Shown here: positions 34,775-46,049 of the stretch, piece by piece | How the letters are laid out: each line of letters begins with the position of its first letter | Position numbering within the stretch: position 1 is the first letter of the stretch | Source: Sheuella sp. | Lineage (GTDB): Bacteria; Pseudomonadota; Gammaproteobacteria; Burkholderiales; Burkholderiaceae_B | Reading direction: 5' to 3' | DNA length: 64,000 nucleotides | Assembly: GCA_030650995.1 (NCBI GenBank) | Contig: JAUSCY010000072.1 | Location: forward strand, 29,570-93,569 | Translations under genes and position numbers: made by a program | The notes under the pieces: generated by a model | What the model saw: only the letters and a program-made list of their open reading frames with translations | The model's database searches: none | What the model was told of the DNA's origin: nothing

Positions 34775-35761
34775 ATGAAGAAGATCACGGTGACAACAAA
34801 TATCGTCATTGTCACCCCTGCTAAATCAGGTACCTTGCATGGCAACAGGACGACCGCGCTGCGCTGGGAGCAACACCTCTGCGCAGCGGGTTTCCAAACC
34901 GAAGTCCTGACAGACTGGCAGCAAGGCAATCAGGACATCATGATTGCCCTGCACGCTGCACGTAGCCATGCATCGATGCGTGCATGGAAACAGCATCATC
35001 CAGAAAAACCATTGATTCTTATCATGACAGGCACGGATTTATATCGTGACTTGTTTGCAGGTAATGCCCAAGCGCTGGCGTCACTGGCACTAGCCGATCA
35101 GATTGTTCTATTGCAGCCTGAGGCAATCAAATGCATTCCCGAGACGTATCATTCGCGCTGCCGAGTGATTTATCAGTCAGTTGCTGCCCGCCGCCGTATT
35201 CCAAAACACGGACGATGTTTCATGGTGACAGTTATTGGGCATCTTCGCGATGAGAAGGATCCCTTACGCACAGCCCACGCATTGCAGCGCATACCGAAAA
35301 CAAGCCGTATACAAGTTTTTCATCTGGGTATGTCCATGCAGGAAAAATATACGCATGAAGCACAGAGACTGGCTTCTCTGGATCAACGCTATCACTGGAT
35401 TGGTCCTCGCCGACATCAGGACACGATGCGCTGGCTTGCCAGCAGTGAACTGATGGTCATCTCAAGCATCATGGAAGGTGGTGCGCATGTTGTATCGGAA
35501 GCGATCGCCCTGGGCATCCCCGTGATTGCCTCCGACATTGATGGAAATCGTGGCCTGCTAGGCAATGACTATCCTGGATTTTTTCCTGTCGGCGATACCG
35601 CCTCACTATCAAACCTCTTAAGCCAGGCAGAGTCAGACCCCGCATACATGCATGCGCTGCATGAGTCACTCGAAAAACGACAGGAGCTTATCAATCCAGC
35701 GAGAGAGTACAGCGAGATTCTGAAGCTTGTCAATGAACTACTCGACAAGCAGAGTGCATGA
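34775..35761 (+). CDS. senB: Selenosugar synthase SenB (glycosyltransferase, TIGR04348-like)
   Basis: SenB joins selenophosphate-derived selenium to a UDP-sugar, making the selenosugar used for selenoneine. The 328-aa protein has the TIGR04348 / SenB layout: an N-terminal segment with GTLHGNRTTALRWEQHL, ALHAARSHASM, IMTGTDLYRDLF and then a GT4-like C-domain with GHLRDEKDPLRTA, YHWIGPRRHQDTM, SSIMEGGAHVVSEAI and GNRGLLG. SenA, SelD and EgtD genes within the next 7 kb, on the opposite strand, confirm the assignment. A start a few codons later (GTG, VTTNIVIV) is also possible. It converges on egtD with 74 bp between stops. Confidence 0.88.
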   Translation: MKKITVTTNIVIVTPAKSGTLHGNRTTALRWEQHLCAAGFQTEVLTDWQQGNQDIMIALHAARSHASMRAWKQHHPEKPLILIMTGTDLYRDLFAGNAQALASLALADQIVLLQPEAIKCIPETYHSRCRVIYQSVAARRRIPKHGRCFMVTVIGHLRDEKDPLRTAHALQRIPKTSRIQVFHLGMSMQEKYTHEAQRLASLDQRYHWIGPRRHQDTMRWLASSELMVISSIMEGGAHVVSEAIALGIPVIASDIDGNRGLLGNDYPGFFPVGDTASLSNLLSQAESDPAYMHALHESLEKRQELINPAREYSEILKLVNELLDKQSA

Positions 35762-35805
35762 TTCGGACTGTTTAGAACTTTACGTTTTACAACTGTTGTT
35801 CTTTA

Positions 35806-35847
35806 AGTTCAGCTTCAGATACGTGGAGTTCAGCCTCAGATACGTGC
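35806..35847. repeat. Tandem 21-bp repeat spanning the egtD stop
   Basis: AGTTCAGCTTCAGATACGTG(G) and AGTTCAGCCTCAGATACGTG(C) lie head to tail with two mismatches; the second copy contains the egtD stop codon. Looks like a small duplication of the 3' end of the gene between convergent egtD and senB. Confidence 0.7.
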
Positions 35848-36783
35848 AAAAAAAACAGCAAACCATTTTTGTGAGTCAGTCCAGTACTCAGCCTCGGAAA
35901 ATCCAGCCTCAGATAGCATTTCCATGAATGTTTCAATCTGATATTTATAACTATTCTCTGTGTGTATTGACTCACCTGATTTAAAGTGGCGCTCACCCCC
36001 TGGCCAGGTGACGACCAAATCACGACGCGCATACAGATGCATCTCAATACGAGACAATGCCTGATTGAAAAATGCATCGTGTCCCCAATCAGAAAGATTA
36101 AAGTCACTAGAAATCAGACTATTTATATGCGTCAGCATATTGCGGTTAAACGCGGCGGTAATGCCTAGCTCATCGTTATAAGCAGCGTGTAAAATCTTAT
36201 CGTCTTTGACTAAATCTACTCCAATGAGCAGTCCACCCCTTTTAGCACTCGCAGGATTCGATTGTTGTGGCGCAATAGAATTATCAGCCAACGCTTTAAA
36301 CTTTTTTAATAAACCGACGGCTTGATCAGGATCAAAGTTTCCGATCGACGAACCAGGGTAAAAACATATTTTTCTATCATTGCGCATTGCTTCAGGCAGC
36401 GTAATGGTTTGTGTCAAATCCGCACTCAGCGCACGCATATCAATATCCGGATAAGCCTTACGCATCTGTACCAGAGCGCTCTCCAGGAAGTCTCCAGAAA
36501 TATCAATTGCCAGATAATTTTTAGGTTGAACGCTTGAAAAAAGCTCTCCGGCCTTATGACAATTTCCCGCCCCTAAATCTATAAGCGTATCAACTGAGCC
36601 TAAGGCGCGAGCAATCGCTTCGCGATGAGCACTCATCACGGACTGTTCGCTACGCGTGGGGTAATACTCAGGCATCATCGTGATCAGTTCAAACAGTCGA
36701 CTTCCCACCGCATCATAAAAATACTTCGGTGAAATAAAAGCACTGTCATTTAACAGACCATCAATGATTGATTGATTATTCAT
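35836..36783 (-). CDS. egtD: L-histidine N-alpha-methyltransferase EgtD
   Basis: Uses three S-adenosylmethionine molecules to convert histidine to hercynine (histidine betaine), the imidazole scaffold of ergothioneine and selenoneine. The 315-aa protein has the family start ISPKYFYDAVGSRLFELIT, EYYPTRSEQSVM, the SAM loop IDLGAGNCHK, FYPGSSIGNF with the histidine-binding region, and GVDLVKDDKIL. The C-terminal SRIEMHLYAR and the Glu of SGESIHTENSYKY complete the substrate pocket. It is the last gene of the selenoneine operon, 18 bp after a permease gene. No separate egtB/egtC lies in the window, so its hercynine most likely goes to SenA. Confidence 0.94.
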   Translation of the reverse strand: MNNQSIIDGLLNDSAFISPKYFYDAVGSRLFELITMMPEYYPTRSEQSVMSAHREAIARALGSVDTLIDLGAGNCHKAGELFSSVQPKNYLAIDISGDFLESALVQMRKAYPDIDMRALSADLTQTITLPEAMRNDRKICFYPGSSIGNFDPDQAVGLLKKFKALADNSIAPQQSNPASAKRGGLLIGVDLVKDDKILHAAYNDELGITAAFNRNMLTHINSLISSDFNLSDWGHDAFFNQALSRIEMHLYARRDLVVTWPGGERHFKSGESIHTENSYKYQIETFMEMLSEAGFSEAEYWTDSQKWFAVFFARI

Positions 36784-36801
36784 ATTTCAATAATAAAAAG
36801 G

Positions 36802-37596
36802 TTAACCTGCGCAGTGAATTTGAATACGCCGTAATCGGGCACTCAGCGCATCAACAGCGATCACAAGTACAAACATCGCGATCAGTGCGGTAGAGGCTTG
36901 AGACTCACGCAAGAGAGACAACTCGTAATACAAAATTTGTCCTAAGCCACCTGCACCGACAAATCCCAGAATAGTGGCCATGCGAATATTCATCTCCCAT
37001 CGGTACAGGGTGTAGGACAATAACTGGGGGGCAACTGCTGGCAACGTTCCATAGAAAAATGCGGTAAAAGGCCTCGCACCACTCAGAATAAGTGCGCGCG
37101 CAGCGTCATCAGAGCGATTTTCGAGTGTTTCGGCGAACAATCGTCCCAGCACACCGATTGTGTGCAGCGCAAGTGCCAGCGTACCCGCAAAGGGCCCCAG
37201 GCCGACGAGAAGAACCATTAAAGTTGCCCAGACGAGTTCTGGTACAGCACGTAAAAAATTTAATAGTAATCTGACGCTTTGCTTTAAAAGCTGACCGAAG
37301 CGACCAGTTGCAGGTAACGCGAAAAGCAATCCAAACAGAGCAGCGAGCAAGGTCGCGACGGCTGAAATAGCAAGGGTTTCAATTGTGCCGTAGGCAACTT
37401 TGAGTAAAAAATCCGGACTCAGATCTGGCGAAAAAAAACGCGCTACAAAAGTACGCATGCTGGAAAGCGACTGCGTACTGAATAATTCAAATGGGTTGAA
37501 TTGCAGAAAACTAAAACTTGCGCAGACAGCCGCAATGCAAACTAAGGACAGGGCAAAACCTCGCCAGGGCATTGCAGGTTTAGGATATATATTCAT
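36802..37596 (-). CDS. Phosphonate-type ABC permease, first copy (putative selenium-compound importer)
   Basis: 264-aa PhnE-family inner-membrane permease with about six helices. The ABC contact loop is seen in ALILSGARPFTAFFYGTLPAVAPQLLSY, and the segment MNIRMATILGFVGAGGLGQIL is the PhnE/TupB-like EAA region. It overlaps the upstream permease gene by 4 bp. With the second permease, ATPase and binding protein it forms a complete importer embedded between selD and egtD. Family members carry phosphonate, phosphite or related oxyanions; the placement suggests a selenium oxyanion or other Se compound, as is inferred for related systems annotated as putative selenate transporters. Confidence 0.88.
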   Translation of the reverse strand: MNIYPKPAMPWRGFALSLVCIAAVCASFSFLQFNPFELFSTQSLSSMRTFVARFFSPDLSPDFLLKVAYGTIETLAISAVATLLAALFGLLFALPATGRFGQLLKQSVRLLLNFLRAVPELVWATLMVLLVGLGPFAGTLALALHTIGVLGRLFAETLENRSDDAARALILSGARPFTAFFYGTLPAVAPQLLSYTLYRWEMNIRMATILGFVGAGGLGQILYYELSLLRESQASTALIAMFVLVIAVDALSARLRRIQIHCAG

Positions 37597-38450
37597 GGAA
37601 GACCCTTGCGGATCAAGTAACTGACCAGATCAGCCACGAATACAAGGATCAGGAACACGATTACGATACTCGACACTTCGCTTGCGTTGAGCATTTTCAT
37701 TGATTGATCCATCAGTTGACCCAAGCCACCTGCACCAACAAAACCCATAATGACGGATGCGCGTATCGCACATTCCCACCGATAAACAGTATAGGATGCG
37801 AGCTCCTGTGCAGCGCCAGGCAAAAGACCATATAAAAATGCCATGGTTCGGCCGCTGCCTGACAGAAGCAGTGCTCGGCAAGCTCGCGTATCGCTTGACT
37901 CAAGGATTTCCGAGTAAACCTTACCTAGCATTCCTGAGTAGGTCAGCGCGATTGCCAGTACACCCGCGGCAGTCCCCAGCCCAAAGACGCGAACAAGCAA
38001 AAGTGCCCAGACAATTTCAGGAACGCCGCGGAGGAATAAAAGTAAAAAACGCGCACACATACGTAAAACATATCCAACACCCCGGCCCGGACCAGGACCG
38101 ATTCTGGATATAGAAAGACTGTAGGTCAATAACAAACCAAGGGGGATAGCAAGCAATATGGCCAGTGCGATTCCAGCCGTCGCCATTGCGAGCGTTTCGA
38201 TGACAGCGGTTAAAAGCAGCGTTAAAAACTCTGTGCTAGTTGCAGGTGGGAAAAACTGAGAAAGAAAATGAGCAAAAACATCCAGATTTTCAGAATCAAA
38301 TATTGCGAAAGGATCAAACTGAGCGATGATCAGCAATGGCCAGAGGATGACTATGCCTAGAATGACAGACAACAGCCTTTTACCTGCAGCGGGATCGCGG
38401 GCAGGTGCTGGGGCTAAAACAGAATGTATTGATGTATTCAAATACGCCAC
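37593..38450 (-). CDS. Phosphonate-type ABC permease, second copy
   Basis: PhnE-family permease, partner of the previous gene; their middle and C-terminal parts are clearly paralogous (CRALLLSGSGRTMAFLYGLLPGAAQELASY, IRASVIMGFVGAGGLGQLM). The ORF track starts at 38522, 71 bp inside the ATPase gene. A GTG at 38450, only 1 base after that gene's stop, is the start I prefer because it avoids the overlap; no strong ribosome binding site decides it. From this GTG the protein has about 285 residues, with the first membrane helix at RLLSVILGIVILWPLLI. Confidence 0.85.
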   Translation of the reverse strand: MAYLNTSIHSVLAPAPARDPAAGKRLLSVILGIVILWPLLIIAQFDPFAIFDSENLDVFAHFLSQFFPPATSTEFLTLLLTAVIETLAMATAGIALAILLAIPLGLLLTYSLSISRIGPGPGRGVGYVLRMCARFLLLFLRGVPEIVWALLLVRVFGLGTAAGVLAIALTYSGMLGKVYSEILESSDTRACRALLLSGSGRTMAFLYGLLPGAAQELASYTVYRWECAIRASVIMGFVGAGGLGQLMDQSMKMLNASEVSSIVIVFLILVFVADLVSYLIRKGLP

Positions 38451-38451
38451 G

Positions 38452-39255
38452 CTATGGTTCGCAAGGCTCAGTATCTGCGAGTGTGATGCCTTGCAAGGGA
38501 ATCGCTCCAGATTCTGCGTCATAGAGGTCGTTTAACATCGCGCGGGTCACTTGCAAAACAGGTAAATCAAATGCAATACGTCCAGACTTGATACCAATAA
38601 TGCGCTCAAACCATTTCAGAGCGATATCCACCGCGTGCAAACTCGCAACAAACGTCACACCACCCTGCGAGGCCGTGGCGTGAAGTTTCGAAATCGTGAT
38701 CTCAGACAGTGTTGGATCCATCGCTGACACAGGCTCATCAGCCAGTATCAGCGATGGAGACTGATACAAAATCCTTGCGACGCCGACTCGCTGTAGCTGC
38801 CCGCCTGAAAGTACATCACAACGCTCAAAAATTTTATCTGCGATCTCGAGTTGCTGCAGCACATGAAACACACCCGGAATATCCTGAGGATAAATCAAGG
38901 ACAGTAAAGCACGCGCCTGAGACCACTGCCCGAGTTTTCCAGCAAGTACCGCCGTGATGACACGCTGTTTGGCAGGAAGTGGCGGCTGCTGATGAATCAT
39001 TCCAATCTGCGTGCGCAAACGACGCAATGCAGACTTATTTAATTGCCAGACATCCTGACCAAGCAAACTGATTGCGCCGGCGCTTGGCCGCACAGAGGTC
39101 GCTAATAAATTAAGTAAAGAAGTCTTTCCCGCACCAGATGAGCCGATCACGGCGATTTTTTCACCACTGCGCGCATGCAATGAAATGTCTCGCAAAGCAC
39201 TGTGGCCATTCGGATGAATAAGCGAGACATTATTTAATTCAAATGCAGGTTTCAC
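38452..39255 (-). CDS. Phosphonate-type ABC ATPase (PhnC-like)
   Basis: 267-aa nucleotide-binding subunit. Walker A GSSGAGKTSLLN, Q-loop near IGMIHQQPPLP, signature LSGGQLQRVGVARIL, Walker B LILADEPVSAMDP and the switch His in FVASLHAVDIAL fit the PhnC group. The start ATG overlaps the binding-protein stop by 4 bp (ATGA). The protein couples ATP use to import through the two downstream permeases. Confidence 0.92.
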   Translation of the reverse strand: MKPAFELNNVSLIHPNGHSALRDISLHARSGEKIAVIGSSGAGKTSLLNLLATSVRPSAGAISLLGQDVWQLNKSALRRLRTQIGMIHQQPPLPAKQRVITAVLAGKLGQWSQARALLSLIYPQDIPGVFHVLQQLEIADKIFERCDVLSGGQLQRVGVARILYQSPSLILADEPVSAMDPTLSEITISKLHATASQGGVTFVASLHAVDIALKWFERIIGIKSGRIAFDLPVLQVTRAMLNDLYDAESGAIPLQGITLADTEPCEP

Positions 39256-40142
39256 TTAATTAACCCAGCCGAACGGGCCGCTTGTTCGATACCGTCGTAA
39301 TTCGATGCTTTTGTTGGAATGAATTTCGATGCGCGCTGCAAATCCATCAACTCTTTCTGACCCGCGTCCGACGCGTCAAGCTTTAGAAATGCGGCAGCAA
39401 TTTTTTTAATCAGCTCAGGATCGAGATTGCCACGGACTGTCCAGTTGTAATCAAAGTAGGGAGGCGTGGTCTCAAGCACTCTTACTTTTTTTGCATTTTC
39501 ATTGCCTGTCTCAATTAGCTTATCCCAGACTGATGCGTTTAGTACGCCAGCCTGTGCCTTGCCACCGGCAACAAACGCGACCGTTGCGTCGTGCGCACCA
39601 GAAAAGGCGATATTTTTAAAGTCTTTGTCTGGATTGATTCCGGCTTGAATCAAAAAATAACGTGGCATCAAATGACCCGAAGTCGATGAAGGTGAGCCAA
39701 AAACAAAATTCTTACCCTTCAAATCGGCCAGAGTTTTAATGGGGCTATCTATCGGTACGATAAACCGGCTTGTAAATACCTCATCTTCCTTACGCTGAAC
39801 AATTGGGATAGCTGTTCCATTTGTGCGGATTTTGGCCTGTACAAACGTAAAGCCCCCCAACCAAGCCATATCGATCTTGTCTGTTGCAAGCGACTCAACG
39901 ACCGCGGCATAGTCTGTGACGGGAATAAACTGCACACGCATCCCTGTCTCTTTGGCGAGGTAGTCACCGAGAGGTTTAAATTTACGCTGCAACTCAGTTG
40001 GAGACTCATCAGGAATCGCCGAAACTCTCAACACGGGTTGCGCCTGCGTGGCCACAACAGGCACGCCTGCAAACAAAAAGGCAGACATCGCGAAAAGACA
40101 ACGTGAGAGATATCTATTCAGTACTTTGGATGAGGTGAACAT
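39252..40142 (-). CDS. PhnD-like periplasmic binding protein, putative selenium-compound receptor
   Basis: 296 aa with signal peptide (RYLSRCLFAMSAFLFAGVPV, cut near TQAQ). PhnD-type motifs: VSAIPDESPTELQRKFKPLG, DYAAVVESLATDKIDMAWLGGFTFVQA, GKNFVFGSPSSTSGHLMPRYFL and AFSGAHDATVAFVAGGKAQAGVLN. The second motif resembles oxyanion-binding loops. Related proteins next to selenium genes are annotated as putative selenate ABC transporter binding proteins; the ligand has not, to my knowledge, been proved for this one. It lies 50 bp after selD in the same operon. Confidence 0.87.
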   Translation of the reverse strand: MFTSSKVLNRYLSRCLFAMSAFLFAGVPVVATQAQPVLRVSAIPDESPTELQRKFKPLGDYLAKETGMRVQFIPVTDYAAVVESLATDKIDMAWLGGFTFVQAKIRTNGTAIPIVQRKEDEVFTSRFIVPIDSPIKTLADLKGKNFVFGSPSSTSGHLMPRYFLIQAGINPDKDFKNIAFSGAHDATVAFVAGGKAQAGVLNASVWDKLIETGNENAKKVRVLETTPPYFDYNWTVRGNLDPELIKKIAAAFLKLDASDAGQKELMDLQRASKFIPTKASNYDGIEQAARSAGLIK

Positions 40143-40192
40143 AGTTGATCTCTATCAAATGGGTATCAAAGTTAAAAGAAAATTAAAGTGAG

Positions 40193-41239
40193 TTATGCGC
40201 GAACAACTACGCCACTGCCCTGCACAACCTGACCAATCTTGCGGGCATCTTCAAAACCATGCTGTTTGAATAATGCGAGGACAGCCTGCTCGCTCGCCGG
40301 ATCGCAGGCGAGTAATAATCCACCACTCGTCTGCGGGTCAGTCAGAAGATTTTTTTGCCAGTCTTCAATACTTGCGTCCAGCTGAACTTCCGCACCAAAT
40401 CCAGCCCAGTTTCGCGCTGAAGCACCGGTCACAATATTCTGTTTTGCAAAATCAACGGCCTGTTCAATGACCGGAATGTCTTTCCAGTTCAACTGCCCCT
40501 GCACCTTGGCACCACGGCACATTTCAAGCAGATGACCAGTCAGTCCAAAGCCTGTTACATCTGTCAAAGCATGCACGCCAGGCATATCAGCCAGTGCCAC
40601 ACCAGGTGTATTGAGCTTGGTTGTATAGCGAATCATCGCCGCATAACCGGCATCATCGAGTTTTTCCTGCTTGAGTGCCGCACTCAATACACCGACTCCA
40701 AGAGGTTTGCCCAAAATCAGGCTGTCACCGACACGTGCACCGCTGTTTCGTTTGAGCTTATCAGGATGAACGATCCCCAACACAACGAGTCCATAGATCG
40801 GTTCAACCGTATCGATCGAGTGACCCCCGGCAATTGGTATTCCTGCTTCAGCGCAAACAGCCTCACCGCCAGCGGTAATTTTTTGAATCACTTCAACAGG
40901 TAATACATTGATCGGCATACCAAGCAGGGCCAACGCAAAAATCGGCTGTCCACCCATCGCATAAATATCAGAAATAGCATTGGTAGCAGCGATACGCCCA
41001 AAATCGTAGGGATTATCAACAATCGGTGTAAAAAAATCGGTCGTGGCGATGATTGCCTGATTGGGATTCAACAGATAAACAGCAGCGTCCTCATTATTTT
41101 CACTGCCTGCCAACAATGCAGCAGGCAGATTTCTGATTGGTGATGCTTTCAGAATATCGCTTAGTACACCAGGTGCAATCTTGCAGCCACACCCGCCGCC
41201 ATGGGCCAGTGAAGTCAGTCGAATTTCCGGTTTGTTCAT
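40193..41239 (-). CDS. selD: Selenophosphate synthetase SelD (SenC role in selenoneine synthesis)
   Basis: Makes selenophosphate from selenide and ATP. The second ATG (41239) is the better start: AAAGGA lies 8 bases before it and the catalytic residues then fall at Cys17 and Lys20 (AHGGGCGCKIAP), as in E. coli SelD. Cys, not selenocysteine, is used. The length, 348 aa, equals the usual 347. Further motifs: ATTDFFTPIVDNPYDFGRIAA, NAISDIYAMGGQPIFAL, IAGGHSIDTVEP, LTDVTGFGLTGHL and TDPQTSGGLLLA. In selenoneine clusters this SelD homologue is called SenC. It may also feed tRNA selenation or Sec synthesis, but no selA/selB/selU is in the window. Confidence 0.95.
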   Translation of the reverse strand: MNKPEIRLTSLAHGGGCGCKIAPGVLSDILKASPIRNLPAALLAGSENNEDAAVYLLNPNQAIIATTDFFTPIVDNPYDFGRIAATNAISDIYAMGGQPIFALALLGMPINVLPVEVIQKITAGGEAVCAEAGIPIAGGHSIDTVEPIYGLVVLGIVHPDKLKRNSGARVGDSLILGKPLGVGVLSAALKQEKLDDAGYAAMIRYTTKLNTPGVALADMPGVHALTDVTGFGLTGHLLEMCRGAKVQGQLNWKDIPVIEQAVDFAKQNIVTGASARNWAGFGAEVQLDASIEDWQKNLLTDPQTSGGLLLACDPASEQAVLALFKQHGFEDARKIGQVVQGSGVVVRA

Positions 41240-41276
41240 GTTTGTCATCCTTTAAATAGTGAAAGACTTGCTTGCT

Positions 41277-42431
41277 TCACATGGCGCAGGTTCTAAACCC
41301 ACAAAAAATATCAGATCGGTGTTTTTGATAAAAATTTCTATAACCCGGGCGTTTCATTCTGTCTGGCGTGATCCAGCTTGCACCACGCAGCACCTGGTGA
41401 TGCCCATCCATCCAGGGTTCTGAATAATCATGGTAAGGATCAGAGGAAAATCCTACGAAAGGACTAAACACTGACGAGGTCCACTCCCAGGTAAAAGAAT
41501 GGGCAACCTGACCTGAATGAAAAGCGGAGCTCTCGCCTAAGCATTGCCACTCTGCCTCGGTGGGCAATCTTCTGCCCTTCCACGCACAATACGCTTGAGC
41601 AAGATCATAGCTGAGATGAACCGCTATCGCTTGAGGAGAAAGCTTGCGCCATTGAGTGAAGCGACGCTCAAACCACTCACCCGATCTGAACTCCCAGTAT
41701 TCAGGTTTTAGGTCAGCACCTGCCTGGCTAAGAAAATCAATGATTTCCTGATTTGTCACGAGCGATGGTGAAATCGCAAAGGGTTCAAGTGCAACGGTGT
41801 GCGACCACTTTTCATTATCAAAGAAAAATCCTTGACCTGGCTGAGCCCCCATTTGAAAGGATCGTGCATCAAACTCGATATCACCTCGGCTGGATAACAA
41901 GGTATTTAAGGTTTCGATTTCAAGTTTCTTTTCTTCAAATCGCTTTTGAAGATGTTCAGGTAATGGATACCCAAGACTTTGTCGCGTGTAAGCGAATGCC
42001 TCGTTGTGCATGTCCTGATGAAAAATCGCAAGCTGAACAAAATAAGCGGTTTGCAGATCAATAGAATTCACAAGCAGTGATTGTGTTTGATTGAATATGC
42101 CGACCAGATAACTCCTGGTCTGCGTGACATTGGGTAATTCAAGTTGCCATCTGGTGTCATGGGCGATATTCGATGAGTTATAAAAATGATCTGAACCCTT
42201 GAGGAAAGAGGGGTTATCGCTGAGCCCCTTTCTATGAATCCATAACTCGCTGAACCAGGCTACGTGGCCAAACTCCCAGAGAGGAAGATTGACCTTTTCA
42301 CTTTGACGGATATCTAGCATCTCACTGGATAAATCATCAAGCAACGACAAGGTCAACTCTTGAGACTCAGATAACCAACACGCCATTTGGTGCGCGCTCG
42401 GTGGCGGTGCGTAATCATTAAAGTCAGTCAT
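41277..42431 (-). CDS. senA: Selenoneine synthase SenA (EgtB-like iron oxygenase)
   Basis: 384-aa non-heme iron enzyme that joins hercynine with a selenosugar oxidatively, the last carbon-selenium bond-forming step. Residues 1-150 are a DinB-like four-helix domain with His56 in WEFGHVAWFSELW and the HxxxH pair His138/His142 in FHQDMHNEAF, the expected three-His iron site. From about 190 a formylglycine-generating-enzyme (C-type lectin) domain follows: SFQMGAQPGQ, RLPTEAEWQ, TWEWTSSVFSPF, VLRGASW and FCGFR. SenA and EgtB share this layout; assignment as SenA rests on the adjacent selD and the nearby senB. Separated from the transporter gene by 7 bp and from selD by 37 bp. Confidence 0.9.
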   Translation of the reverse strand: MTDFNDYAPPPSAHQMACWLSESQELTLSLLDDLSSEMLDIRQSEKVNLPLWEFGHVAWFSELWIHRKGLSDNPSFLKGSDHFYNSSNIAHDTRWQLELPNVTQTRSYLVGIFNQTQSLLVNSIDLQTAYFVQLAIFHQDMHNEAFAYTRQSLGYPLPEHLQKRFEEKKLEIETLNTLLSSRGDIEFDARSFQMGAQPGQGFFFDNEKWSHTVALEPFAISPSLVTNQEIIDFLSQAGADLKPEYWEFRSGEWFERRFTQWRKLSPQAIAVHLSYDLAQAYCAWKGRRLPTEAEWQCLGESSAFHSGQVAHSFTWEWTSSVFSPFVGFSSDPYHDYSEPWMDGHHQVLRGASWITPDRMKRPGYRNFYQKHRSDIFCGFRTCAM

Positions 42432-42438
42432 TCACTTT

Positions 42439-43986
42439 TCAACTTGATACGGCATGACGATCGGCTCGCAGTTTGAGCCCGCGAGGCACTAGCCAGACCT
42501 CGGAAAATTCAAACAAGGCATGGACTGCGAGCGCTAACCCCGCAGCAGGAATCGCACCAGCCAGCAACATCAGATGATCGTTGAGTGCAAGACCCTGAGC
42601 GATTCTTTCGCCAAATCCACCTGCACCGATGAACGCAGCAATGGTGGCCGTTCCAACATTGATCACTGCGGAAGTTTTAATGCCTGACAAGATACTGCGC
42701 ATCGATAGTGGCATCTCAATCGTAAACAAGCGGTAAAAACGACCTAATCCGAGCATTTTTGAGCACTCTTGAATATCGGCGGGTATATCACTGAGACCTG
42801 AATAGGTATTGCGGACAATTGGAAGCAATCCATACAACACTAAAGCACATATCGCAGGGACGGTACCAATTTTTCCTAGTAACGGAATAAACAAGGCGAA
42901 CAGCGCGAGTGAGGGGATCGTGTGAATCACACTCACTGTGCCGAGTACAAACTGCCGCACAGCCGGTAATTCAAAACTCAACACACCCAGCGGCACACCA
43001 AGCAGGATTGAAAAGATAAGAGAAACAAAAACCAGTCGCGTGTGCTCACCAAGCAAGCGCCAGAAATCATTAGCAAAAAGAGTATTCAGAAAATTACGGG
43101 AACTCTGGGGCGTGTTCTCCCCAGCTAAAAATGTGCGTGCAATCTGCAGGAAACCTATTTTGTCTTGCTCGGCCTGACTATTCATATCGATCATCACCGA
43201 TTCTGAAATCGTATCTTTCAGTTTTTCCAGAGACACCCATGTTTTTGGCAGGCGCACCGGCAAATCGGACCGGTGTAACAGCACGGCCTCATAAGCAGGA
43301 AAATAGTGGCGGTCATCCTCAAGAATCAGTAAAGGATAGCGTTTGAGCATCGCGTCTGTAGTGTAGGCATCGATCACATCAATTTGCTTTGCCTCCAGCG
43401 CACCATAAATCAGGCCATGATCAATGCCTCGTGGGGTTTGTTGAGGTAAGTCATAACGTGCTTTTAAGCCAGCCCATCCGTCCTGACGTCCAATGAACTC
43501 CTGGGTCAGGCCCATTCTCAACTGCGGATGTTTGGTTAAATCTGAAATTGAACGGATATTTAACTGCTCAGCAAGATCTCTGCGCATAGCTAGAGCATAG
43601 GTATTATTGAATCCTAGCGGCACGCCTGCAGAAAGACCGAGTGGCGCCAATAACTGATTCATTTCTCGCAGATCAAGGTCTTTCGGACTTTGAAGGATTT
43701 CGCGCGCAATCGTACCGGTGTACTCGGGATAAATATCGATTTCACCTGCTTTGAGTGCCGCGACTAATATCCCGGTATTACCCAGCCCAGAGCGCAATAT
43801 CACTTGCGCCTCATGTGCACCCTTCGCTGTCAGGGCAATCACTTCACCTAAAATATATGACTCAGTAAAACGTTTTGAGCCGATGGTCAGCGTCTTGTTC
43901 GTATCCGCCAGAACAGGCTGAATGATGACCAAAAACCCAACAATGAGACACACGCATAAAGCCGAACATTTCAACAGCCATTTCAT
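42439..43986 (-). CDS. Fused binding-protein/permease of an OpuC/EgtU-like ABC importer
   Basis: 515 aa from the ATG at 43986, which overlaps the ATPase stop by 4 bp (ATGA). It begins with a signal-anchor-like segment (MKWLLKCSALCVCLIVGFLV), then a type II osmoprotectant-binding domain (about 28-285: LTIGSKRFTESYILGEV, LGNTGILVAALKAGEIDIYPEYTG, IYGALEAKQIDVIDAYTTDA) and a C-terminal permease domain (about 305-505; INVGTATIAAFIGAGGFGERI). The EgtU ergothioneine importer of Gram-positives has the opposite order, permease first. Betaines are the known ligands of the superfamily, and hercynine, ergothioneine and selenoneine are all betaines. Encoded 7 bp before senA, import of one of these is a good hypothesis. 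Confidence 0.85.
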   Translation of the reverse strand: MKWLLKCSALCVCLIVGFLVIIQPVLADTNKTLTIGSKRFTESYILGEVIALTAKGAHEAQVILRSGLGNTGILVAALKAGEIDIYPEYTGTIAREILQSPKDLDLREMNQLLAPLGLSAGVPLGFNNTYALAMRRDLAEQLNIRSISDLTKHPQLRMGLTQEFIGRQDGWAGLKARYDLPQQTPRGIDHGLIYGALEAKQIDVIDAYTTDAMLKRYPLLILEDDRHYFPAYEAVLLHRSDLPVRLPKTWVSLEKLKDTISESVMIDMNSQAEQDKIGFLQIARTFLAGENTPQSSRNFLNTLFANDFWRLLGEHTRLVFVSLIFSILLGVPLGVLSFELPAVRQFVLGTVSVIHTIPSLALFALFIPLLGKIGTVPAICALVLYGLLPIVRNTYSGLSDIPADIQECSKMLGLGRFYRLFTIEMPLSMRSILSGIKTSAVINVGTATIAAFIGAGGFGERIAQGLALNDHLMLLAGAIPAAGLALAVHALFEFSEVWLVPRGLKLRADRHAVSS

Positions 43987-44735
43987 GATGCGGCACTCGT
44001 CTGCGGGAAAGTCTCCTGACGCCACGCAGAAATAAATCTGGTGACATAAGGCGTTGAAGGATTATTCATAAAATCGGCCATGACACCATCCTGAACAACC
44101 GATCCCTGATCCATCAATACGAGATGTTTCGCCAGCAACTGCGCCTCAGTCAAATCATGAGTGACCAGTAAAACGGTTTTTTGCAATTGTGCAAATAAAA
44201 CCCTGAGCTCTTGTTGCAGATCGTGTCGCACAATAGGATCCAGCGCCCCGAGCGGCTCATCGAGTAACAATATCTCAGGGTCAAGCATCAACGCGCGCAT
44301 CAGCCCGACGCGCTGGCGCTGCCCGCCCGAGAGCTCTTGCGGATAACGCGACATCATTTTCAGAGGGAGTGACACAAGCTTGCAGAGTGACTCAAGGCGA
44401 TCTTGTAAAAAATCACGATCCCGCTTGAGATAGCGTCCGACAATCAAGACATTTGCTTCTACAGACAGATGCGGAAATAAGCCGCCTTGCTGAACCATAA
44501 AGCCGAGTTTTTGGCGATATACCGGCAAATCCATCTGAAAAATATTCTGACCGTCAACTAAGATTGAGCCCTGGTCGGGGGCAATCAGTGCGCTCAACAG
44601 CCTTAAAACGGTTGACTTGCCTGAACCACTCGAGCCAATCAAAGCAGTAGTCGTGCCTTTTTCGAAGGATAAATTGACGTTTTTAAGTTCAAAATCATCA
44701 CTCAAACGTTTAGATACAGACAAAAAACTGATCAA
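43983..44735 (-). CDS. OpuC/EgtV-like ABC ATPase
   Basis: 250-aa ATPase, first gene of the selenoneine operon. Walker A GSSGSGKSTVL, Q-loop GFMVQQGGLFPHL, signature LSGGQRQRVGLMRAL, Walker B ILLLDEPLGALDP, switch His in LLVTHDLTEA. It lacks the C-terminal CBS pair that OpuA/OpuC-type osmoregulated ATPases carry, which argues against osmotic control. The start is a TTG (MISFLSV) with GAGG 5 bases upstream; no ATG is available at the right place. Together with the fused gene it forms a complete two-gene importer. Confidence 0.86.
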   Translation of the reverse strand: MISFLSVSKRLSDDFELKNVNLSFEKGTTTALIGSSGSGKSTVLRLLSALIAPDQGSILVDGQNIFQMDLPVYRQKLGFMVQQGGLFPHLSVEANVLIVGRYLKRDRDFLQDRLESLCKLVSLPLKMMSRYPQELSGGQRQRVGLMRALMLDPEILLLDEPLGALDPIVRHDLQQELRVLFAQLQKTVLLVTHDLTEAQLLAKHLVLMDQGSVVQDGVMADFMNNPSTPYVTRFISAWRQETFPQTSAAS

Positions 44736-44822: not shown

Positions 44823-46049
44823 ATGAATAGCACTACAGCTGCCAAAACGGCAGGTCCTGATATCTCGGCACAAAGTGCCGCAATCCCGATTCTGGTTTCT
44901 CTGAGTTTTTGTCATTTGCTCAATGATCTCATCCAGTCATTGATCCCTGCTCTATACCCCTTATTCAAACAGGAGTTTGACCTGGATTTTGCGCAAATTG
45001 GCATCATTACACTCGCTTTTCAAATGACAGCCTCGTTGCTTCAACCCACGGTGGGGTTTTATACCGATAAAAAACGACAGCCCTTTTCGCTTGCCTTTGG
45101 CATGTGCTCGACACTGATTGGACTGTTGCTTTTATCCGTCGCACACAATTATGTTGCGATTCTGATTGCAGCGTCACTGGTTGGTACAGGCTCTGCTATT
45201 TTTCACCCTGAGGCCTCACGCGTTGCACGCATGGCTTCGGGTGGCCGCTATGGAACGGCACAAGCTTTCTTTCAGGTGGGCGGCAACCTTGGTCAGGCAT
45301 TCGGACCATTGCTGGCAGCATTTATCGTATTGCCACGCGGCCAGGGTGCGATTGCCTGGGTTTCGCTGGCGGCCTTAGTCGGCATGTCGATCCTGACACG
45401 GATTGGTCTCTGGTACCGGGCCCGCACACGCCCAAGCCAAACGGCAACAGCCAAGTCACGCGTCAATACCCATGGACTATCCCAAGGGCGGGTTTTGTTC
45501 CTGATCAGTATTCTGATGCTTCTTCTTTTCTCAAAGAATGTTTACAGCTCAAGTCTCACATCATTTTTTACTTTCTATCTTATTGAGCGCTTTAATTTGC
45601 CGATTCAAGCAGCTCAAATCCAGCTGTTCATTTTCATGGCGTCTATCGCAGTAGGTACTCTAGTGGGTGGTGCGCTAACTGATCGCATTGGCCGGCGCCC
45701 CATGATCTGGATCTCGATTCTGGGCACCCTGCCTTTCACGCTGGCACTACCCTACGCAGATTTGTTCTGGACAGGCGTTCTAACTATTATTATTGGTTTA
45801 CTGATGGCCTCCGCGTTCCCTGCGATCCTGGTGTTTGCCCATGAGCTGATTCCTGGTCGCGTCGGACTCGTCTCCGGGATATTCTTTGGTCTGTCATTCG
45901 GATTAGGCGGCCTGGGTGCCGCCTTGATGGGCTACATCGCCGACTCACATGGTATTTCTTATATTTACATGCTGTGCTCTTATCTACCGGCCATCGGTCT
46001 GGTCGCCTGGTTCCTGCCGGACCTGACACCACGCAATGTTGAAATCTAG
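44823..46049 (+). CDS. MFS transporter, fosmidomycin-resistance (Fsr) type
   Basis: 408-aa twelve-helix carrier. LSFCHLLNDLIQSLIPALYPLFK near the start and FFQVGGNLGQAFGPL in the middle are the Fsr signature; GFYTDKKRQP is the loop 2-3 motif and GGALTDRIGRRPM the 8-9 motif. Fsr proteins export small polar compounds such as fosmidomycin and perhaps sugars. It is divergent from the selenoneine operon, so a part in export of a pathway compound is conceivable but unproved. The ion-channel gene starts 5 bp after its stop. Confidence 0.9.
   Translation: MNSTTAAKTAGPDISAQSAAIPILVSLSFCHLLNDLIQSLIPALYPLFKQEFDLDFAQIGIITLAFQMTASLLQPTVGFYTDKKRQPFSLAFGMCSTLIGLLLLSVAHNYVAILIAASLVGTGSAIFHPEASRVARMASGGRYGTAQAFFQVGGNLGQAFGPLLAAFIVLPRGQGAIAWVSLAALVGMSILTRIGLWYRARTRPSQTATAKSRVNTHGLSQGRVLFLISILMLLLFSKNVYSSSLTSFFTFYLIERFNLPIQAAQIQLFIFMASIAVGTLVGGALTDRIGRRPMIWISILGTLPFTLALPYADLFWTGVLTIIIGLLMASAFPAILVFAHELIPGRVGLVSGIFFGLSFGLGGLGAALMGYIADSHGISYIYMLCSYLPAIGLVAWFLPDLTPRNVEI

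Follow-up and report, generated by a model that had tools for sequence, protein, structure and literature searches.

Ten genes lie between positions 34775 and 44735 of the window, i.e., of the whole stretch of 64,000 nucleotides of Sheuella sp. DNA analyzed here. Nine of them are encoded on the minus strand (44735–35836) in the order proV–opuBC–senA–selD–phnD–phnC–phnE1–phnE2–egtD, and senB alone (34775..35761) is located on the plus strand. When counted from egtD back to proV, the nine minus-strand genes are separated by 18, −4, −71, −4, 50, 28, 7 and −4 bp, and three of these junctions are 4-bp overlaps that read ATGA or GTGA. The value of −71 bp presumes the longest open reading frame for phnE1 (37593..38522), the true start of which is probably located downstream of position 38522, as judged by comparison with the related locus L115. 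The start of opuBC was set at position 43986, where the gene shares an ATGA overlap with proV; the longest open reading frame begins at 44025. The ends of senB and egtD are only 74 bp apart, so that the two genes converge. Coordinates, order and strands of all ten genes agree with the original prediction, and its description of gaps of 50 bp or less with repeated ATGA overlaps also held. An Rfam search of the region from 30 to 50 kb of the window returned no RNA element, and promoter and terminator scans performed no better than on shuffled sequence. A short imperfect repeat resembling cagcctcagata (35805–35910) extends from the end of egtD into the senB–egtD gap, and a gene for an MFS-type transporter (44823–46049, plus strand) diverges from proV with a gap of 87 bp.

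The SenABC pathway for selenoneine was reportedly described for Variovorax paradoxus by Kayrouz and co-workers in 2022. Here, family membership was judged against the curated NCBIfam cut-offs. The product of senB, the selenosugar synthase (a Se-glycosyltransferase), reached 373 bits with TIGR04348 (cut-off 300) and matched the solved SenB structures in the PDB with an E value of about 5e-57. The residues studied in connection with the structures of the Variovorax enzyme are N20, T23, H58, R155, K158, E231 and E239 (PMC10891094). Their counterparts in the protein from the window are N24, T27, H60, R158, K161, E234 and E242, such that all catalytic residues tested are shared with the Variovorax protein, and the equivalents of N20, T23, K158 and E231 are accompanied by the EGGAHV motif that completed our feature test for SenB. 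The original prediction had allowed for the possibility that SenB belongs with unrelated GT4 enzymes, which is contradicted by the TIGR04348 score and these residues. The selenophosphate synthase SelD, which fills the role of SenC as in Variovorax (40193..41248, minus strand; 522 bits with NF002098, cut-off 299), and the histidine N-alpha-methyltransferase EgtD, which forms hercynine (35836..36783, minus strand; 354 bits with TIGR03438, cut-off 291), are each the only copy found in the 91% complete genome, and both reside in the operon. SelA was not found in this 91% complete genome, and the idea that SelD serves Sec decoding was therefore rejected. MnmH, for which selenophosphate is the substrate in tRNA selenation, is encoded in the genome. 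Since SelD occurs as a single copy in a genome that also contains MnmH, the enzyme from the operon probably feeds both selenoneine formation and tRNA selenation.

SenA (41277..42431, minus strand), the putative selenoneine synthase, is more divergent. With NF041186 it scored 390 bits and missed the cut-off of 420; with the EgtB model it scored 198 bits, far below the cut-off of 360. Two relatives from the same clade reached 379 and 394 bits with NF041186. A true EgtB from the same family (genome G098) gave 588 bits with the EgtB model and still 386 bits with the SenA model, and a score near 390 can therefore not by itself separate SenA from EgtB. A phylogenetic tree was calculated for 102 sequences, in which EgtB forms a separate side with a support of 100 and the SenA from the window lies outside of it. 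The grouping with EgtB that the original prediction had considered as an adverse outcome was accordingly not recovered, and an identity as EgtB was rejected on the basis of this separation and of the EgtB model score. The notion that the protein is an EgtB, that the locus produces ergothioneine and that SenB has an unrelated role could draw on the presence of EgtD and on the homology of SenA and EgtB; however, with the score so far below that of the true EgtB of the family, with full support for the split in the tree and with the catalytic residues of SenB intact, it is very improbable. No EgtB was found in the genome; the only FGE-type protein found besides SenA (C113) gave a weak, partial match with the SenA model.

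Within the tree, SenA is part of a clade of 36 sequences (support 98) that are mostly linked to SenB and stem from Polynucleobacter and metagenome-derived Betaproteobacteria. This clade is distinct from that of the characterized Variovorax SenA, and it groups with OvsA and with another SenB-linked clade on a short branch (support 95). OvsA forms a different selenium compound, ovoselenol. Both this grouping apart from Variovorax SenA and the score below the SenA cut-off would be compatible with an OvsA-like enzyme that attaches selenium to histidine, in which case the locus would yield ovoselenol or another 5-selenohistidine and not selenoneine. We consider this improbable, as the PDB match to SenA (1e-66) is better than that to OvsA (8e-51), egtD is located inside the operon, and the residues Y336, N366 and F367 represent the Y/N/F triad common to EgtB, Variovorax SenA and the SenA studied here instead of the OvsA-type M/Q/A, so that an OvsA identity is disfavored. 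The significance of the triad was derived from sequence differences among PDB entries: the two OvsA entries carry different residues at three positions of the active site, namely M/Q/A in 8u41 and Y/N/F in 8ux5, and because natural OvsA-type proteins in genomes G003 and G356 carry M/Q/A, 8ux5 appears to be an engineered protein. Given the Y/N/F triad and the presence of egtD in the operon, hercynine is the likely substrate of SenA and selenoneine the likely product of the locus. The complete selenoneine pathway claimed in the original prediction is thus well supported by score and residues of SenB, tree position and triad of SenA, single copies of SelD and EgtD, and the lack of any detected EgtB. 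The OvsA-type proteins in G356 (L222) and G003 (L224) belong to the family of the window; no SenB was found near them, and both genomes also hold SenA-type proteins.

We then linked these genes with information about their genetic environment in a sample of 300 genomes of the order Burkholderiales, 87 of which contain SenB above the cut-off. Layouts were counted on the SenB loci that were fetched with flanks of about 10 kb on each side, and 55 of these hold both senA and senB. The orientation of senB had originally been thought unusual, as had the inclusion of egtD, and neither view can be upheld: in each of the 55 loci, senA and senB are encoded on opposite strands (53 divergent, two facing), and egtD is present within the fetched 10 kb or so in 19 of them. 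Two other features are unusual: senB points towards the end of the operon, whereas senB of Variovorax paradoxus diverges from senA, and two importers are included in the operon. The locus further differs from the Variovorax system in that egtD is part of the operon and in that SenA belongs to another clade and stays below the NCBI cut-off. A wider scan revealed further relatives with a facing senB. Two Polynucleobacter-type genomes from another family, G402 (L246) and G407 (L264), show exactly the gene order of the window including opuBC, but proV was not detected beside opuBC in either of them. Locus L115 in the Polynucleobacter-type genome G076 also shares gene order and facing senB but lacks opuBC. 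Within the genus of the window, G350 (L216) contains a Variovorax-type sen cluster together with an opuBC gene, G320 (L217) has only egtD and an EgtB-type gene, and G376 has no match to the SenA family. This patchy occurrence within one genus suggests that the trait was spread by horizontal transfer.

A second sen layout is found in Polynucleobacter-type loci (L138, L144, L161, L247, L249 and L250), where phnDCEE–senA–selD–egtD faces an opuBC–senB pair; the binding protein is more distant but still a TIGR04553 member, as checked in L247. The Polynucleobacter-type genome G450 carries two senA–egtD–senB loci (L262 and L263) without selD beside them. In 34 of the 89 fetched SenB loci, senA is absent from the fetched flanks (among them L035, L038–L043, L046, L047, L049, L050 and L052), and 14 of these 34 have a neighboring gene for a SpoU/TrmH-like RNA methyltransferase, as named by eye. 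Most of the highest TIGR04348 scores belong to loci without senA, and for this reason the model may extend to proteins that have a different role.

The first of the two importers is encoded by phnD (39252..40142), phnC (38452..39255), phnE1 and phnE2 (36802..37596), all on the minus strand. The phnD-like substrate-binding protein, a candidate selenite binder, exceeds the curated cut-off of TIGR04553 (368 vs. 250 bits), a family labeled by NCBI as putative selenate transporter protein. Among its partners, the PhnE-type permease PhnE2 exceeds the cut-off of TIGR01097 (237 vs. 217 bits), whereas PhnE1 (193 bits with the same model) and the PhnC-type ATPase (219 bits with TIGR02315, cut-off 266) remain below. 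TIGR04553 and SenB occur together in 36 of the 300 genomes, with 51 containing SenB only, 30 TIGR04553 only and 183 neither (p = 6e-7, uncorrected for relatedness). In the SenB-negative genomes G058, G166 and G171, TIGR04553 adjoins selD; across the SenB-negative genomes, its association with SelD has a p value of 0.08. The ligand residues of the phnD-like protein (Y78, F123, STS at 153–155, H184, D231 and the capping Y232) match the set established for phosphite binding by PtxB and Prochlorococcus PhnD (PMC5700983), including the STS–H motif and the capping tyrosine; the difference from these proteins lies in the membership in TIGR04553 and in the linkage to selD and sen genes. As the residues are of the phosphite type, they point to a small anion with three oxygens as the putative ligand. 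Selenite and phosphite have the same pyramidal shape. For this reason selenite is favored over selenate as the candidate ligand, even though the residues would fit phosphite equally well.

The second importer is encoded by opuBC (42439..43986) and proV (43983..44735), both on the minus strand. OpuBC is a fusion of a substrate-binding domain with a permease (PF04069 and PF00528), is related to AfProX and EgtUC, and is the only protein with an OpuAC domain found in the 91% complete genome. Its partner, a ProV-type ATPase (PF00005; 227 bits with TIGR01186, short of the cut-off of 327), also occurs beside opuBC in stand-alone pairs, and it is to such pairs that the opuBC of the window is closest (60% identity). 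Homologs of opuBC are located beside sen genes in several lineages and layouts (L129, L131, L135, L137, L138, L144, L161 and genome G350). In the genus of G076, SenB is present in 18 of 20 genomes with opuBC and in 21 of 101 without (p = 6e-9); in 12 of the 18 the distance between opuBC and senB is 11 kb or less, and in two more (G393 and G456) opuBC adjoins another sen gene. In a tree of OpuBC, the sen-linked copies appear in several parts, and the well-supported branches enforce at least five label changes, which suggests that opuBC has been repeatedly recruited into, or repeatedly separated from, sen loci. The most informative result for opuBC comes from genomes without SenB, where 21 of the 24 genomes with a member of the OpuBC family encode EgtD, as compared to 4 of the 40 that lack one (p = 5e-10, the controls being a non-random choice). 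The link persists when larger genomes only are considered (17/20 vs. 3/15, p = 2e-4) and when counted by family (13/13 vs. 4/29, with a family taken as positive if any of its genomes was). Relatedness was left uncorrected in the association tests across the order.

Because the OpuBC family tracks EgtD even where senB is missing, its ligand is probably a histidine betaine, i.e., hercynine, ergothioneine or selenoneine, a proposal based on gene association for which the binding pocket argues caution. Like EgtU from Streptococcus pneumoniae, OpuBC combines a betaine-type binding domain with a permease and conserves the quaternary-amine cage and the carboxylate clamp (PMC9732360). In contrast to EgtU, the domain order is reversed with the binding domain coming first, and Phe, Tyr and Phe replace Gly244, Phe293 and Tyr337, the first two of which are the ergothioneine-specific positions of the EgtU pocket (PMC9732360). 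Membership in EgtU was rejected on account of the Phe and Tyr at these two positions. Comparison of sen-linked with unlinked OpuBC proteins revealed no difference in the ligand pocket (the misaligned unlinked rows L230 and L238 were left out).

These pockets also bear on a more conventional explanation, in which the enzymes make selenoneine and the transporters are ordinary ones, phnDCEE serving phosphite or phosphonate and proV–opuBC glycine betaine for osmoprotection, and in which their location in the locus reflects chance or a general connection to stress. The phosphite ligand set of the phnD-like protein, the Phe and Tyr in OpuBC that are of the type found in AfProX, a glycine betaine binder, and the fact that no second OpuAC-domain protein was found in the genome would all fit. 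We nevertheless regard ordinary transporters as unlikely, since both systems are recurrently linked to sen genes, TIGR04553 adjoins selD also where senB is absent, and OpuBC follows EgtD in SenB-negative genomes.

The general picture that emerges is that of a self-contained selenoneine island equipped with its own importers for selenium and for histidine betaines, to which we assign a probability of roughly two in three. Against it stand the score of SenA below the curated cut-off, its position outside the Variovorax SenA clade and the closer position of OvsA on a short branch, together with the phosphite-type pocket of the phnD-like protein, the Phe and Tyr in the OpuBC pocket and a p value of just 0.08 for TIGR04553 with SelD alone. 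According to the island reading, phnDCEE would import a selenium oxyanion, most likely selenite, from which enzymes encoded outside the operon are assumed to form selenide. SelD would then provide selenophosphate, from which SenB would form the selenosugar, and EgtD would trimethylate histidine to hercynine. SenA would couple selenosugar and hercynine, and breakdown of the coupled product would yield selenoneine; the roles of all four enzymes are taken over from those of their characterized homologs. In addition, proV–opuBC may import external selenoneine, ergothioneine or hercynine, as the gene associations suggest. A more far-reaching idea, which we advance tentatively and at somewhat less than even odds, is that the opuBC fusion represents an undescribed importer family of the Burkholderiales for EgtD-derived histidine betaines (selenoneine, ergothioneine, hercynine) that has a pocket unlike that of EgtU and was recruited into selenoneine operons more than once, here next to a dedicated selenite importer.

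The SenABC pathway and the putative selenium role assigned by NCBI to the phnD family were already known; the present analysis adds the operon in which these elements are integrated, the finding that it is conserved in another family, and an importer family that is linked to EgtD. The two ABC importers are the more informative part of the locus. According to two reviews, prokaryotes have no known selenium transporter that is both specific and of high affinity (PMC9312934, PMC13188914). The operon places a defined candidate for a selenium importer in one transcription unit with selenium-using enzymes, and the importers thereby offer a testable answer to the question of how selenium for selenoneine enters the cell. 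The proV–opuBC pair, in turn, is a candidate for a Gram-negative uptake route for selenoneine or ergothioneine, a role that is backed by the link to EgtD in genomes without senB.
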